Source of the DNA: Candidatus Limiplasma stercoravium
GTDB lineage: Bacteria; Bacillota; Clostridia; Christensenellales; Aristaeellaceae
Reading direction: 5' to 3'
DNA: 42,958 nt
NCBI GenBank assembly: GCA_018715175.1
Contig: DVME01000041.1
Location: forward strand, 1 to 42,958
Shown: piece after piece, positions 12,183-27,439 of the stretch
How positions within the stretch are numbered: position 1 is the stretch's first letter
Layout of the letters: every line of letters begins with the position of its first letter
Position numbers and translations under genes: made by a program
Notes under the pieces: model-generated
The model's database searches: none
The model's input: the letters and a program-made list of their open reading frames with translations, nothing else
What the model was told of the DNA's origin: nothing

Positions 12183-13211
12183 GTGCGCTACGCAATGCTG
12201 TTAAAGCCGCACGCAAATGTGCGGTATCGCTTATCGTTGCAAAAGCTGGCGTTGATTGAGCTGGAGTGTCTACTCAACGCTTGGGGCGTTGCCAACGCGC
12301 GCCCCAGCGTCGCCTTTGTTTCAGGCGATCCGTTTCTCACCTTTGAGGCAGAGGCGCTCCCGCCTGATGCCTGGAACGCGCTATCGCGTCATTCCGGCGT
12401 GTGTTTGGCCGCAAGGCTGGATTCGCAGGACGCGCTTAGGCCCCTGCCGCGCGGCGCCGTCCGGTATGAGGATTTGCCGCAGGTGCTCAAGTACAAAGGC
12501 AAAACCAACGCCGATTTTACGCGCATGCTCCTCCATTGCGCGCAATGCGCCTCGGACTTTGCGCGTCAGCCGGGGCCGCTGCGCGTGTTGGATCCGGTTT
12601 GCGGCAAGGCCACTACGCTGTTTTGCGCTTTTTCCGAGGGACATGACGCCCTGGGCGTGGATGTGGATACGCGCGCGCTTCACGAGGCGGACGCCTACTT
12701 TGCCCGTTACCTGCGCTTGAACCATCTCAAGCACAAACGCACGGCTTCGTCGCTGACCCTGCGCGGCGGCGGAAACGCCGCAGAAACAGCCTTTTCCGTC
12801 GCTTTTGAGGACAGCCCGGCGCTTTCTGTGCGCCTGGTGCATGGCGACGCGCGGCGGATTGGGGATATGCTGCGGCCGGGCAGCTGCCACATCGCCGTGG
12901 CCGACCTGCCCTACGGCGTGCAGCACGCGCCCAAGGGCGTTTCGGGTTTGATGACGCCGCTGCGCCTTTTGCAGGAGGCCCTGCCGGGATGCGTGCAGGC
13001 GCTCGCGCCGGGCGGCGCGATGGCCGTCTCTTTCAACCTGCATACCCTGCGCCGCGAAGACGCCGTCGACGCGATGCGGCAAGCAGGGCTCGAGGTGCTC
13101 AGCGCCCCGCCCTATGATGATTTTTCCCATTGGGTGGAGCAAGCCGTGGACCGCGACGCCGTCGTGGGCCGCAAGGATTCAATCAAACCGCCGGTTAGGA
13201 AACAGACGTAA
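12183..13211 (+). CDS. Putative RNA/DNA methyltransferase, TRM11-like
   Basis: A 342-residue Rossmann-fold methyltransferase. Motif I is LDPVCGKATTLFCAF followed by the acidic GVDVD (S-adenosylmethionine site, around residues 138-165). The catalytic motif IV is DLPYG (about residue 242), the form found in tRNA guanine-N2 methyltransferases of the Trm11/Trm14 group. The N-terminal 120 residues have no clear THUMP domain that I can recognise. The start is GTG at 12183 after AAAGAGG. It sits 13 bp before rho, so the pair is co-transcribed. The target (tRNA, rRNA or DNA) cannot be decided from sequence. Confidence 0.75.
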   Translation: MRYAMLLKPHANVRYRLSLQKLALIELECLLNAWGVANARPSVAFVSGDPFLTFEAEALPPDAWNALSRHSGVCLAARLDSQDALRPLPRGAVRYEDLPQVLKYKGKTNADFTRMLLHCAQCASDFARQPGPLRVLDPVCGKATTLFCAFSEGHDALGVDVDTRALHEADAYFARYLRLNHLKHKRTASSLTLRGGGNAAETAFSVAFEDSPALSVRLVHGDARRIGDMLRPGSCHIAVADLPYGVQHAPKGVSGLMTPLRLLQEALPGCVQALAPGGAMAVSFNLHTLRREDAVDAMRQAGLEVLSAPPYDDFSHWVEQAVDRDAVVGRKDSIKPPVRKQT

Positions 13212-13224
13212 GGAGGGTATCAAT

Positions 13225-15252
13225 TTGCGAAACGATCAACTGCAGGCCATGACCGTGGTGCAGCTTCGCAAGCTCGCAAAAGAACGCGGCGTCAAGCTCG
13301 GCGCCGGAATTGACAAGGCCGGGATTATCGCCCGCCTGTTGGAAGAGCCCGACGGCGCGTCGATGCCCCAAGAGGTACCGCCCGTGGAAAACCAGGCTCA
13401 GGAAGAGCCCATAAACCAGGAGGAACCTCAGGGCGACGATGCAGCTGGGCAAAGCCTGCAGGATGCGCCCCTATCCGCCGACGTGACCTCCGTCGCGCCC
13501 GGTACTGGCTTCCGACCGTGGAACAACCCGCAGGAGCCAGGCTCCTTTAAGCCCGTGTACCGCCAGGCATGGCAGGCGCGCAGTACCGCCCAGCGCGAAA
13601 CCGCAAAACCGGCTTGGCAGCAAGGGCGTACGGCCGGCACCGTCAATCGTTTCGGCCCGCAGCCGCGTCCTGCCCCTCAGCCGCAAGCCGAAGCCGCGGC
13701 CGCCGCGCCTCGGCCGGCCGCCGAAACGCCCTATGAATCCAAACCCCAGGAGCCGCGCCCCCAGGAAATGCCGCCCCGTCTGGACGGATATCGCCTGGGC
13801 TACACCGCCGCGCCGCAGCGTCCTTCCTACCGCAGCAATGACTACACCGGGCGCGAGCGCGACTATGGTTATCAGCAGCGCCAGGGCTACGGCCGAGACT
13901 ACGGCTATCAGCAGCGCGCGCCCTACCAAAGCGGGGCGTACCGGCAAAACGCTGGCTACGGCTATCAGCAGCGCAGCCATCAGCCGCCCATGCCTCCCGC
14001 CGGCGAAACCAACTACAACGACAGCCTCTACCGCATGCAGCGTGACGCGCAGTTTACCGAGCAGATGGAGGCCGGCCAACTTCCCGAGATGCTCAAGGCG
14101 CCCGAAGGAACGCCTGCTTGCGGTATTTTGGAGATTCTTCCGGACGGCTATGGCTTCCTGAGGAACAATACGCTTTTGCCCAGCAAAAAGGACGTTTACG
14201 TATCCGTCGCGCAGATCCGGCGCTTTGGCCTGCGCACCGGGGATTTCGTGGAGGGGATCGCCCGGGCGCAGCGCGACAGCGACAAGTTTGCCGCCCTGCT
14301 GGTCGTGGATAAGCTCAACGGCGCCGAAGCCGCGGAAAATCCCGACCGGCTGGAGTTCGACCAGCTGGTGCCGGTGTATCCCACGCGGCGAATCGTCCTG
14401 GAGAGCATGGAAAACGAAGAAAACATGGCCATCCGGCTGGTGGATCTCATCGCCCCCATCGGCTTTGGCCAGCGCGCCATGATTGTCTCCCCGCCGGATT
14501 GCGGGCGGCTGGTCATGCTGCGCGACATTTGCCGCGCCATCAAACGCAACGACGCCGATGCCGAGGTGCTCATGCTGCTGATCGACATCGCGCCCGAAGA
14601 AGTAACGGAAATCCGTGAAGCCGTGGATGCCGAGGTCTTTGCCTCTACCTTCACCGACGCGCCGGAAACCCAAATCCGCGTGAGCGAAACCATGCTGGAG
14701 CGTTCGCAGCGGCTGGTGGAAAACGGCCGCAACGTCGTCATCCTGCTTGACAGCCTCACCAAGCTAACCCGCGCCTACCAGTCCGCGCTGATGCAGGGCG
14801 GACGCCCCATGACCAACACCGTCACCCCCGCCGCGCTGGTCAAACCCAAGCGCTTTTTCGGCGCGGCGCGCAACACGCGCGACGCCGGCAGCCTGACCGT
14901 CATCGCCACCATCGCCGTGGAAACCGGCTCCCGGGTGGACGAAATCATCTTCGAGGAGTTCAAGGGCACGGCCAATATGGAGCTTTTCCTGCTGACGCGT
15001 CACGCCGGCGACCCTGTGTATCCCATGATTGACCTGCAAATGAGCGGCACCAAAAAGGACGATATGCTCCTGAGCGAGGATCAAAAGGAAGGTTTGCGTT
15101 CCATTCGCAAGGTGCTGGGCTCCACCACCAACGGCGAAGCCGTGGTGCAGCTGATCGACATGATTCAAAAAACCAAATGCAACGCCGACCTGCTCAACCG
15201 CCTGCGCGACTGGATCAGCATGTGGGAAAAAAGCGGTTATCTCAAGCGCTGA
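13225..15252 (+). CDS. rho: Rho-family protein with degenerate ATPase site
   Basis: A Rho homologue of 675 residues; typical Rho has about 420. The start is TTG at 13225, 7 bp after AAGGAGGG. Domains: an N-terminal Rho/SAP-like helical domain (LQAMTVVQLRKLAKERGV, residues 5-45), a Pro/Gln/Tyr/Arg-rich insert (about 45-290) and the RNA-binding cold-shock-like domain (GILEILPDGYGFL, QIRRFGLRTGDFV). The RecA-like ATPase core follows, including the RNA-contacting KPKRFFGAARNTRDAGSL. In the core, Walker A reads PPDCGRL instead of PPKAGKT (Arg428 replaces the lysine, Leu the Thr). The catalytic Glu position in LIDIAPEEV is Ile455, and SGTKKDD has Lys610 where SGTRKEE is usual. The Walker B Asp509 and the arginine-finger Arg628 remain. 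It may bind RNA without normal ATP-driven termination. Confidence 0.9.
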   Translation: MRNDQLQAMTVVQLRKLAKERGVKLGAGIDKAGIIARLLEEPDGASMPQEVPPVENQAQEEPINQEEPQGDDAAGQSLQDAPLSADVTSVAPGTGFRPWNNPQEPGSFKPVYRQAWQARSTAQRETAKPAWQQGRTAGTVNRFGPQPRPAPQPQAEAAAAAPRPAAETPYESKPQEPRPQEMPPRLDGYRLGYTAAPQRPSYRSNDYTGRERDYGYQQRQGYGRDYGYQQRAPYQSGAYRQNAGYGYQQRSHQPPMPPAGETNYNDSLYRMQRDAQFTEQMEAGQLPEMLKAPEGTPACGILEILPDGYGFLRNNTLLPSKKDVYVSVAQIRRFGLRTGDFVEGIARAQRDSDKFAALLVVDKLNGAEAAENPDRLEFDQLVPVYPTRRIVLESMENEENMAIRLVDLIAPIGFGQRAMIVSPPDCGRLVMLRDICRAIKRNDADAEVLMLLIDIAPEEVTEIREAVDAEVFASTFTDAPETQIRVSETMLERSQRLVENGRNVVILLDSLTKLTRAYQSALMQGGRPMTNTVTPAALVKPKRFFGAARNTRDAGSLTVIATIAVETGSRVDEIIFEEFKGTANMELFLLTRHAGDPVYPMIDLQMSGTKKDDMLLSEDQKEGLRSIRKVLGSTTNGEAVVQLIDMIQKTKCNADLLNRLRDWISMWEKSGYLKR

Positions 15253-17049: not shown

Positions 17050-18786
17050 ATGAAACGCATCGGCGCATTCCTTTTGGCGCTTTTCCTGTTTGCAACCCCG
17101 GCGCTTGGCGAAAGCGGCGTCAGCACATCCGTGGACAAAAGCGCCTACGGCGTGACGGTGGTCAACAATCACCTGGATCTTACCGGCGACCGTCAGCGCC
17201 AGCTGGTGGATTATCCCACCTTTGAAAGCGACGACGCCGCGCTTGTCCAGTTTTTGACCGACAGCATCACCACCCCCATTCTCGCCCTGCGCAAGCTGGG
17301 CCAAATGGCCCAGGACGAAGCCTATGCCGACGGCCATACCGACGCCATCCGCGGCGGCTACACCGCGTCGCTGGATTTCCCCAACTTGCTGAGCGTGGAA
17401 GCCTCGGTGACCAATCTGGCCGCCGGCAGTACGACGGCTGAAACCTCGTTGTTTTACCGTATCGTCCATCTCGGCACTCAGCGCGTATTGACCATCGAGG
17501 AGCTTTTTGCGGATAACGAGTTGGCCGTAGAAGCCGAAATCCGCCGCGTTGTCTTTGAAAAGGCGCGGGAAAGCGGCGTGCTCTCGTCTTCCATTGTCAG
17601 CGAAAACGCCGTCCCCATGCCCGACTCCTACTATGTGGATCAAAACGGCCTGCGGGTCATCTATGCGGCGGGAGCGCTCAACGACGGCGTGCAGCAGCTG
17701 GATCTTTTCTGGGACGAGCTTTTGCTGATTCCCTCCGCCTACCTGACCGGCGAAGAGATCCAGGCCGTCTCCCCGACGCCCAGCGAGGCTCCCGCCACGC
17801 CCTCCCCTGCTACGGACGCGCCCGCGCCGTCTCAGGAAACGGCAGCGCTGGATCCTAACTTCTCCCTAGCGCCGGTCATCACTCCCACGCCCATGCCCGT
17901 GGAGGGCAACGACGCCATCCTCGTGGACGTGCTGACCCACGGCTTGTGGAAACCCCTGGGCGGCGACGGGAGCGTATACTATCAGTTCACCGCCGACGGC
18001 AAGCTTTTGACCGTGACCGTCAGCAACTACACCGTGACCGACGGCACGCTCGACAGCGATGTTCTCAGCGGCTCGCTTGACATCGGCAGCGACAGCGCCT
18101 TTACCCTGCGCTCCAACGGCGTGCCCAGCGGTTACGTACTCAACCGCCAGGGCGACGCCGTGGCGCCGGAGGAATTCGTTACCCCCAGCCCTTCGCCTAC
18201 GCCCTCCCCCACGCCTTCGCCGTCTCCCACGCCCTCACCCTCGCCATCCCCCACGCCCTCGCCGTCCCCCACGCCGACCCTCGCGCCTACGCCCACGCTG
18301 TCGCCCTACGAGCAGGCGCGCCTGGAAGCCCCGACCTTGGAAGGACTGACGGATGCCTCCTTTGAAAACGTGCGCAGCCTGGAGGTTTACACCGCGCCCA
18401 GCGAAGACGCTTACCGCGTGGACGGCGCGCAGGTTACCACGGACGCCACGCCGATCATCTATGGCGTGGAAGGCGAATGGGTGCTGGTGAGCTACGGCAT
18501 CGGCGATGGATCCCGCGGACGGATGGGCTACATTCGCAACACCACCCTCGCGGACCCTGAGAACGTCGCGCCGCTGAACCTTTCGCGCATTCCAGCGACG
18601 CTGACCAAGGATGCCGACGCAACGGACGACCCGCTTAACGCCCGCACCGCGCTGACCTCGCTGAAAGCCGGGGACGAAGTGACCCTGTTGGGTTTCCTCG
18701 GCAGCGAATGGGTCTATGTGGAATTCTCCCTCGACGGTAAAACCTGCCGCCTGTTCGTGCCGCAGTCCGCTTTGATGGAGGAATGA
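17050..18786 (+). CDS. Secreted protein with RsiV-like domain, PSP-rich linker and SH3-like repeats
   Basis: 578 residues. A signal peptide (residues 1-20, [20 protein letters not shown]) is followed by a domain (about 30-235) whose pattern resembles the DUF3298/RsiV-type extracytoplasmic fold: [21 protein letters not shown] and [17 protein letters not shown] second small domain (about 290-375) precedes a linker of repeated Pro-Ser/Thr (18180-18306). Two SH3-like segments follow, with [19 protein letters not shown] and [18 protein letters not shown]. Such an architecture suggests a wall-associated protein. The ATG at 17050 is 8 bp after AAGGAGG. The gene overlaps the next by 4 bp (ATGA). The exact role is unknown. 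Confidence 0.7.
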
Positions 18787-19787
18787 CCGTGGATCGCAAG
18801 GATGAAATCATCCGGCTGCAAATGAACGTCATCCAGCAGATGACGCGCAACAACCTCACCCGTCTGGCGGACGACCTGTGGGGCGCGGCGCAGCCTTTGG
18901 CCCAAGCTGCCGGCTCGCCCAAGCCTTCCGGCGAAGCGGAGGCCCAAGCGCCGGAAGATCTGGAAGTGCTCAAGCAGGAGCTGCACGAATACATCGGCCT
19001 TTCATCCGTCAAGCGCGAGGTGGAAAGCCTGATCAACCTGGTGACCGTGCAAAAACTCCGGCGTGAAAACGGCCTTCCCGCGGACGACCTTTCATTACAC
19101 ATGGTATTTTCGGGCAACCCAGGGACAGGCAAAACCATGATCGCACGGCTGATGGCCCGCATTTTCAAAACCTTGGGAATCCTGAGCAAGGGCCATTTGG
19201 TGGAGGTGGATCGCAGCGGCCTGGTAGCGGGATACGTGGGGCAAACTGCCTTGCGCACCGGCGAAGCCATTCAAAAGGCTTTGGGCGGCGTGCTGTTCAT
19301 CGACGAGGCCTATGCGCTGACCAACCGCGGCGGCAACGATTACGGTCAGGAAGCGGTGGACACGCTGCTCAAGGCCATGGAGGATCGCCGCGAAGACCTG
19401 GTAGTCATCGTCGCGGGGTACATTGGGCCCATGGAGGATTTCCTTCATTCAAACCCAGGACTAGAGAGTCGTTTCAACCGCTTTTTGCACTTCCCGGATT
19501 ACACGGTGGACGAGCTAGCGGCCATCTTTGACCTGCGCTGCCAAAAAAGCGGTTACCAGCTGGCGATGGACGCGCGCGGCCTGCTGCGCGACATACTGGC
19601 CCGGGCCAGCCAAGACGCCGTCGGCTTTGGAAACGCGCGCGGCGTGCGCAACCTCTTTGAACACGCCGTCAGCCAGCAGGCCAACCGCTTGGCGCGTCAG
19701 TCGGATTGGACGCGCGAGTCGCTCATGCTCCTCACGGAAGAAGACCTTCGCGCTGCCGAAGAAGCGCACGGGAGCGGCGCATGCTGA
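18783..19787 (+). CDS. SpoVK/CbbX-like AAA+ ATPase
   Basis: 334 residues. After an N-terminal helical part of about 65 residues it has the CbbX/SpoVK core: [12 protein letters not shown], Walker [18 protein letters not shown], Walker [11 protein letters not shown] and the arginine motif [12 protein letters not shown]. This group includes the stage V sporulation protein SpoVK, needed for mature spores in Bacillus, and the Rubisco activase CbbX; no Rubisco gene is near, so SpoVK-like is the better reading. The ATG at 18783 overlaps the stop of the preceding gene as ATGA. ruvC starts within its last codons, giving tight translational coupling. Confidence 0.85.
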
Positions 19788-27272: not shown

Positions 27273-27403
27273 GATCCATTGGAAACCTATGCCCAAGACA
27301 GCGGGTCGAAGCGAAAGCTTCGTAAATGTCCCCGCCGAGGTGTAAGGTGGGAGAAATCCCCATGCGACTTGTTCGCCCTTGCGCCTGCAAGGGTTTTCTT
27401 TTT
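27273..27403 (+). ncRNA. Ribosomal protein L10 leader
   Basis: The transcript leader before rplJ contains the conserved L10-leader elements CCCAAGACAGCGGG and CCCCGCCGAGGTG, which pair around a kink-turn bound by L10(L12)4. It ends in the hairpin CCCTTGC/GCAAGGG (27376-27382 with 27387-27393) with a T-run at 27394-27403. This last hairpin looks like an attenuator. Excess L10 would lower expression of its own operon (known in Bacillus). Confidence 0.88.
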
Positions 27404-27439
27404 GGAATCGACAGATTTTCAAAAAGGAGGTGCAACCCC

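Follow-up and report, generated by a model that had tools for sequence, protein, structure and literature searches.

Rho is the textbook ATP-driven terminator, and a lineage that keeps its sole Rho without the motor would part the RNA-binding role of this protein from its motor role. The case described here comes from a stretch of 42,958 nucleotides (termed the window; contig DVME01000041.1 of assembly GCA_018715175.1) of Candidatus Limiplasma stercoravium; Limiplasma is placed among the Christensenellales (PMC13106387). Its only detected rho gene encodes a protein of 675 amino acids that carries the RNA-binding head of Rho on a RecA-like fold whose ATP site has been dismantled. None of the literature matches listed describes a Rho that is motor-dead by nature, although a survey of Rho diversity lay outside these and may mention such variants.

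The closest described proteins are the canonical Rho factors of E. coli, T. maritima and M. tuberculosis, represented by the family models NF006886 and TIGR00767. The window protein shares with them the domain order, the fold, the gene tree, the RNA-binding domain and largely the R-loop region, but the GG of its Q-loop is replaced and it scores 443.1 against TIGR00767, below the cut-off of 509.45. A second comparison is offered by laboratory mutants of the catalytic glutamate, E211A of E. coli Rho (EcRho) and E386A of M. tuberculosis Rho (MtbRho), for which RNA binding without hydrolysis would likewise be expected. MtbRho E386A has lost hydrolysis, helicase activity and efficient transcript release, while its oligomeric state and its binding of ATP and RNA are not drastically changed (PMC4499133). 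Unlike these mutations, the change in the window protein is natural, extends over the genus and is accompanied by loss of the P-loop and of the arginine finger.

Three further cases resemble the locus in part. The Rho of B. thetaiotaomicron, which bears an intrinsically disordered region, also has a long N-terminal insert and is in principle condensate-capable, but it is an active terminator with a KE-rich and NQ-rich insert (PMC13269538), whereas in the window protein the insert abounds in Q, P, A, R, G and Y and has little Lys. NCBIfam describes a non-standard class of short Rho forms as paralog_Rho2 (NF041509); this is a short paralogue by its name, whereas the window protein is long, the only copy found, and reaches 353.2 bits where the cut-off is 628. 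Lastly, Bacilli lineages without Rho have given up Rho-dependent termination in evolution, as the window lineage may have done, but there the gene is gone and here it would be kept without its motor (PMC13323073).

Identity and fold of the window protein

An earlier note, made from the sequence alone, had recognised a Rho core in an intact frame of 675 codons; reading of the open frame confirms the latter, and searches of Pfam, NCBIfam and PDB the former. The parts that define the protein are as follows.

13225–15252, forward strand: rho orthologue, 675 amino acids, TTG start, TGA stop ending at 15252; the sole Rho found in the genome.
13372–14079, forward strand: low-complexity insert, residues 50–285, presumably disordered, as judged from its composition (high in Q, P, A, R, G and Y, low in K).
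14119–14328, forward strand: RNA-binding domain of Rho, the primary binding site, which includes GYGFLR (Pfam and alignment).
14431–15045, forward strand: ATPase domain of RecA-like fold (ATP-synt_ab in Pfam), the fold retained and the site dismantled, from Pfam, AlphaFold2 and Foldseek.

The RNA-binding domain (Rho_RNA_bind, 3.9e-27) precedes the ATPase fold (ATP-synt_ab, 1.3e-16), NF006886 is matched at 1.2e-133 with 445.9 bits, above its cut-off of 315, and a PDB search gives Rho at 1.6e-99. An AlphaFold2 model built on a 50-row alignment reached a pLDDT of 85.5, and the best 50 PDB matches listed by Foldseek for this predicted structure are Rho or Rho-complex entries. A Rho tree computed after removal of the active-site columns and a neighbouring gene agree with vertical orthology to canonical rho, the trees being quick and partly unresolved. 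An origin as a paralogue or a transferred gene was considered and set aside, being supported by neither the rpoB tree, the Rho tree nor the neighbouring gene. As far as its sequence tells, the window protein is thus a Rho in descent and fold, but its site is not that of an active Rho.

Rings that combine active with inactive subunits are known from F1-type ATPases, which counts for a reading in which the window protein is an inactive subunit beside another, canonical Rho. A second canonical rho, for which the earlier note proposed a search, did not turn up: a domain search of the source genome (2.38 Mb, 142 contigs, 95.7% complete) found no second Rho RNA-binding domain, and the other ATP-synt_ab matches are two adjoining genes on contig C142 and one weak match below the cut-off. 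A mixed ring is therefore highly improbable.

Active-site residues

The active site was mapped by alignment to solved Rho chains (MtbRho and T. maritima Rho). Positions are given in E. coli numbering, of which the numbers other than E211, R212 and K184, including that of the R353 position, are those we take to apply; the finger number assumed in this way fits the MtbRho numbering with the same offset, 175. In MtbRho, Lys359 belongs to the P-loop, Glu386 is catalytic, Arg387 forms the valve and Arg541 the finger (PMC8828861). The corresponding and adjoining sites of the window protein are listed below.

14491–14511, forward strand: degenerate Walker A, PPDCGRL where canonical Rho has PPKAGKT (alignment).
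14587–14592, forward strand: Ile455 for the catalytic Glu and Ala456 for the Arg valve (alignment to solved Rho).
14749–14751, forward strand: Walker B Asp509, kept (alignment).
14761–14763, forward strand: Lys513 for Arg (SLTK), in 17/17 genus rows and also in four rows that are canonical in other respects.
14815–14820, forward strand: Q-loop GG replaced by NT (residues 531–532), in 17/17 genus rows.
14842–14880, forward strand: KPKRFFGAARNTR, including KPKRFFGAARN, in which 7/7 canonical-invariant columns are kept in the genus.
14923–14940, forward strand: R-loop TGSRVD, in a stretch where 15/19 canonical-invariant columns are kept.
15013–15015, forward strand: Pro597 for the Arg of the E. 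coli R353 position, a number that we assume (alignment).
15052–15054, forward strand: arginine-finger position, now Lys610 in SGTK (alignment to MtbRho R541).

The alignment places Arg428 at the P-loop Lys and Leu429 at the P-loop Thr, so that the Walker A reading of the earlier note holds, as do its Ile455 with a neighbouring Ala (the valve position), its retained Asp509 and its SGTK in place of SGTR. It was mistaken in naming Arg628 as the arginine finger, since Arg628 sits 18 residues past the true position, and because MtbRho R541, the Arg of SGTR, aligns with K610, the finger has been substituted too. Of the residues expected in an active Rho, the P-loop Lys and Thr, the catalytic Glu, the valve and the finger are all replaced and the Walker B Asp is kept.

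Conservation in genus, family and class

Sixty related genomes were searched for Rho and 58 gave a match, some of them weak. Alignment across related Clostridia, which had been suggested together with the initial observation, shows that the loss is common to the genus: in 17/17 same-genus genomes only D265 (Walker B) is canonical among nine active-site positions. By the same motif table 19 of the 21 order-level relatives hold all nine canonical residues, and the remaining two are G038, a partial contig that is canonical where readable, and G042, which is non-canonical. The source genome is a fragmented draft of 142 contigs, which might favour an error of sequencing or assembly, or else a copy in decay, the outcome that the earlier note tied to canonical residues in orthologues. 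That explanation was rejected and is the least probable of those considered, as the open frame runs over 675 codons, a loss of the same kind is seen in 16 more same-genus genomes and purifying selection acts on the core (see below).

Nine positions proved too strict a yardstick: of 80 loci, 14 from Verrucomicrobia have RKTERDRYR and four others KKTERDKRR. Rho proteins that are probably active can thus differ at the K181, R353 and R269 positions, and a new count was based on five strict residues (K184, T185 with Ser allowed, E211, D265 and R366). The Verrucomicrobia rows (L239, L246, L247 and L249–L259) carry Arg at the first P-loop Lys and Tyr at Arg353, the rest of the nine being canonical. 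Judged from these rows, the first P-loop Lys and the Arg353 position are not diagnostic of a dead Rho.

By the strict count, 16/17 same-genus genomes are without four of the five residues and 1/17 is without three. For the family, which is probably CAG-74/Aristaeellaceae of GTDB, we examined 136 genomes selected from 308 and chosen to include low scorers, so that the counts give no prevalence: 58 hold all five strict residues, one is missing in 18 and at least two in 60, among which 26 are without four or more. A Rho match is present in 118/120 high-quality family genomes, a few of these matches being weak and perhaps due to other ATPases. Two further families of the order likewise include degenerate Rho, in G042 (L053) and in G440 (L389), the latter a genome of about 1.1 Mb. 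Genome G276 holds two different Rho genes (L146 and L149), and the active sites of both are degenerate.

As a baseline for Clostridia, 245/293 genomes have a match above the NF006886 cut-off, and, the source genome aside, all but four of these are better than 1e-155. The strict residues are present in three of these four low scorers (G048, G530, G607 and G455), and the fourth is truncated at a contig end. In a check of low-scoring class members, three further weak matches (G434, G486 and G557) aside, L381–L387 retain the strict set; L388, likewise truncated at a contig end, is canonical as far as it can be read, and L389 alone is degenerate. A low model score alone was accordingly discarded as a sign of a dead site, seven low scorers having kept the strict set.

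Within the genus the P-loop has drifted, with D, Q, G or E at K181, R, G or S at K184 and L or S at T185. This bears on the suggestion, also made by the earlier note, that the protein is a motor using a different nucleotide chemistry, or other residues for hydrolysis. The kept fold of the predicted structure, the Walker B Asp, and the largely kept R-loop region and KPKRFFGAARN would suit an active motor; however, the P-loop Lys and Thr, the catalytic Glu, the valve and the finger are all substituted, and a new fixed chemistry would hardly permit P-loop residues to vary among species of one genus. The drift looks like function lost and not like a new nucleotide site, and we consider an active motor very unlikely.

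History of the loss

An rpoB tree was computed for 53 of the 60 genomes, four being without a match and three left out as fragments. Trees were quick, with SH-aLRT support alone, and the rpoB root is a single long outgroup row that is itself degenerate. In this tree the canonical genera are basal in the family, and most degenerate ones fall in a crown group of 31 rows, 27 of which are non-canonical by the nine-position count. Parsimony gives five changes by that count (four of them forced by starred branches), six for the loss of at least one strict residue and 10 for the loss of at least two, and under an irreversible-loss model K184, T185, E211 and R366 were lost 9, 10, 9 and 8 times, respectively, counts that are rough on a quick single-gene tree. 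On these reconstructions the loss of catalytic residues is recurrent within the family. The Rho tree without the active-site columns shows the same main groups, but its resolution is poor.

Intermediate states are visible in living relatives. All five genomes of the sister genus keep the P-loop Lys, the Thr (Ser in one) and the Glu and have Lys at the finger, and a starred branch of the rpoB tree unites this genus with G010, a species of the window genus without P-loop and Glu; the Rho tree leaves the grouping open. The halfway state of the sister genus together with the placing of G010 suggests that the finger was lost first and the P-loop and Glu later, the later step perhaps twice. At the far end stands the most eroded genus (g7), where in the three loci tested of seven (L060, L156 and L160) Pfam finds Rho_RNA_bind and sees no ATPase domain; Rho_N is also matched in these proteins, weakly in two of the three.

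Selection on the retained core

Core dN/dS was estimated by the Nei-Gojobori method for 16 of the 17 genus genomes, from pairs with dS below 1.8 (95 of 120), which are partly saturated. The median is 0.149, the five pairs of lowest dS give 0.09, 0.32, 0.07, 0.18 and 0.16, and canonical groups, with 1–6 pairs each, have medians of 0.07–0.17. By this measure the Rho core of the window genus is under purifying selection.

From 57 canonical rows we defined 104 canonical-invariant columns and counted one as kept if found in at least 80% of genus rows. The RNA-binding domain keeps 10/10, as completely as KPKRFFGAARN, whereas Walker A keeps 0/5, the Q-loop 0/2 and the finger surroundings 3/7. The RNA contacts of the primary site and the R-loop are thus conserved in the genus and those of the Q-loop are not. 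In addition, 19 residues are near-fixed in the window genus and its sister genus and occur in at most 5% of canonical rows.

Coding purine bias

Bacilli without Rho show a weaker coding purine bias (PMC13323073), and the same quantity was followed in the family. In a first sample of 51 genomes, with about 20 kb each for most, mean coding purine was 0.5135 in 23 canonical genomes versus 0.5014 in 28 others (p 0.0008). Phylogenetic generalised least squares (PGLS) gave p 0.002 at lambda 1, with only three independent pairs, and p 0.005 at fitted lambda for the loss of at least two strict residues; four-fold sites gave no robust purine effect (p 0.28 and 0.66). The sample was enlarged by a second stretch for 40 genomes, to 52 genomes in total, and coding purine was then 0.5096 in 28 genomes with no strict residue lost, 0.5090 in six with one lost and 0.5031 in 18 with two or more lost (p 0.063), a smaller difference than before; with the tree ignored, p was 0.007 and 0.004, and with relatedness taken into account it was not significant (see below).

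Possible function of a probably motor-less Rho

Taken together, we consider it probable that the window protein is a vertically inherited Rho orthologue that lost its ATP motor in place and kept the RNA-binding head, the R-loop and the RecA-like fold, a description that amounts to an RNA-binding pseudo-ATPase. The phenotype of MtbRho E386A suggests by analogy that it should bind RNA and not terminate, being unable to hydrolyse ATP or translocate. The earlier reading as a Rho-derived RNA-binding regulator that no longer translocates stands in its first part, the loss of hydrolysis being supported by the site, while the role of a regulator is plausible.

Several observations weigh against this reading or narrow it. 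The strict set is intact, and activity may persist, in some members of the family whose K181, R212 or R353 positions are altered. RNA handling has changed as well, since the rewritten Q-loop is one of the RNA contacts in the channel. The Rho tree sets the degenerate G042, which belongs to another family, within the family on a long branch, by artefact or by transfer. In the enlarged purine sample PGLS with the tree finds no significant difference (p 0.18 and 0.23); as the purine bias of the family is small even with canonical Rho, this test has low power here. Lastly, four other degenerate genera have core dN/dS medians of 0.39–0.48, which indicates weaker constraint there.

These last values also favour a reading in which selection on Rho has relaxed across many members of the family, with loss of the motor to be followed by loss of the gene, so that the protein would be a relic with little or no function. 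The recurrent losses counted above, the drift of Walker A within the genus, the very long Rho branches of several degenerate rows and the one genus without a recognisable motor domain fit the same picture. However, the dN/dS median of the window genus is like that of canonical groups, the 19 near-invariant positions shared with the sister genus are rare in canonical rows, and a match, if weak in a few cases, persists in nearly all high-quality family genomes. On this evidence a relic appears unlikely, though it is the most serious of the alternatives.

As for its action, the least certain part of the main reading, a motor-less Rho could act as a static RNA-binding ring or clamp positioned on nascent or untranslated RNA, and its Q/R/Y-rich tail would perhaps make it a scaffold of RNA condensates, while transcription in these bacteria would be ended by intrinsic terminators. 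Such a tail is present in the window genus and also in some canonical genera, so its composition is not tied to motor loss. More tentatively, and at somewhat less than an even chance, we propose that this is a fixed natural motor-less Rho with a positive role, which would work free of ATP on RNA or RNA polymerase, either as a hexameric ring that binds RNA or as a scaffold of condensates, and would have arisen several times and stepwise (finger, then P-loop and Glu) in one gut-type Clostridia family where intrinsic termination makes the transcript ends. A lineage that sheds the motor of its only Rho stepwise would also supply separation-of-function mutants made by nature, whose intermediate and end states exist in living relatives. 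For genome surveys that class species by the presence of rho, it matters that an annotation of 'rho present' does not mean Rho-dependent termination.

Neighbourhood of the gene

Two features lie directly ahead of the rho frame.

13212–13217, forward strand: Shine-Dalgarno sequence GGAGGG ahead of the TTG start (sequence reading).
12183–13211, forward strand: upstream gene, possibly a class-I methyltransferase, ending 13 bases before the rho start.

A similar arrangement of Shine-Dalgarno sequence and TTG start is visible in orthologues of the window rho. The upstream gene matches no Pfam family at E 0.001, and its weak class-I methyltransferase likeness comes from the NCBIfam DVU_1556 family (E 0.003, far below the cut-off). 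A relative of it shares the fetched rho locus in 16/17 genus, 5/5 sister-genus and 15/59 canonical loci; order and strand were seen for a named subset of loci, and since many fetched loci have short flanks, absence of the relative means little.

Elsewhere in the window, the third predicted open reading frame after rho (18783–19787, forward strand) encodes a SpoVK/CbbX-like AAA ATPase with a P-loop, which scores 308.1 bits against TIGR02881 (cut-off 422.95). An Rfam ribosomal protein L10 leader is matched at 27274–27409 on the forward strand, with a score of 44.5 that is barely above the gathering threshold of 44.
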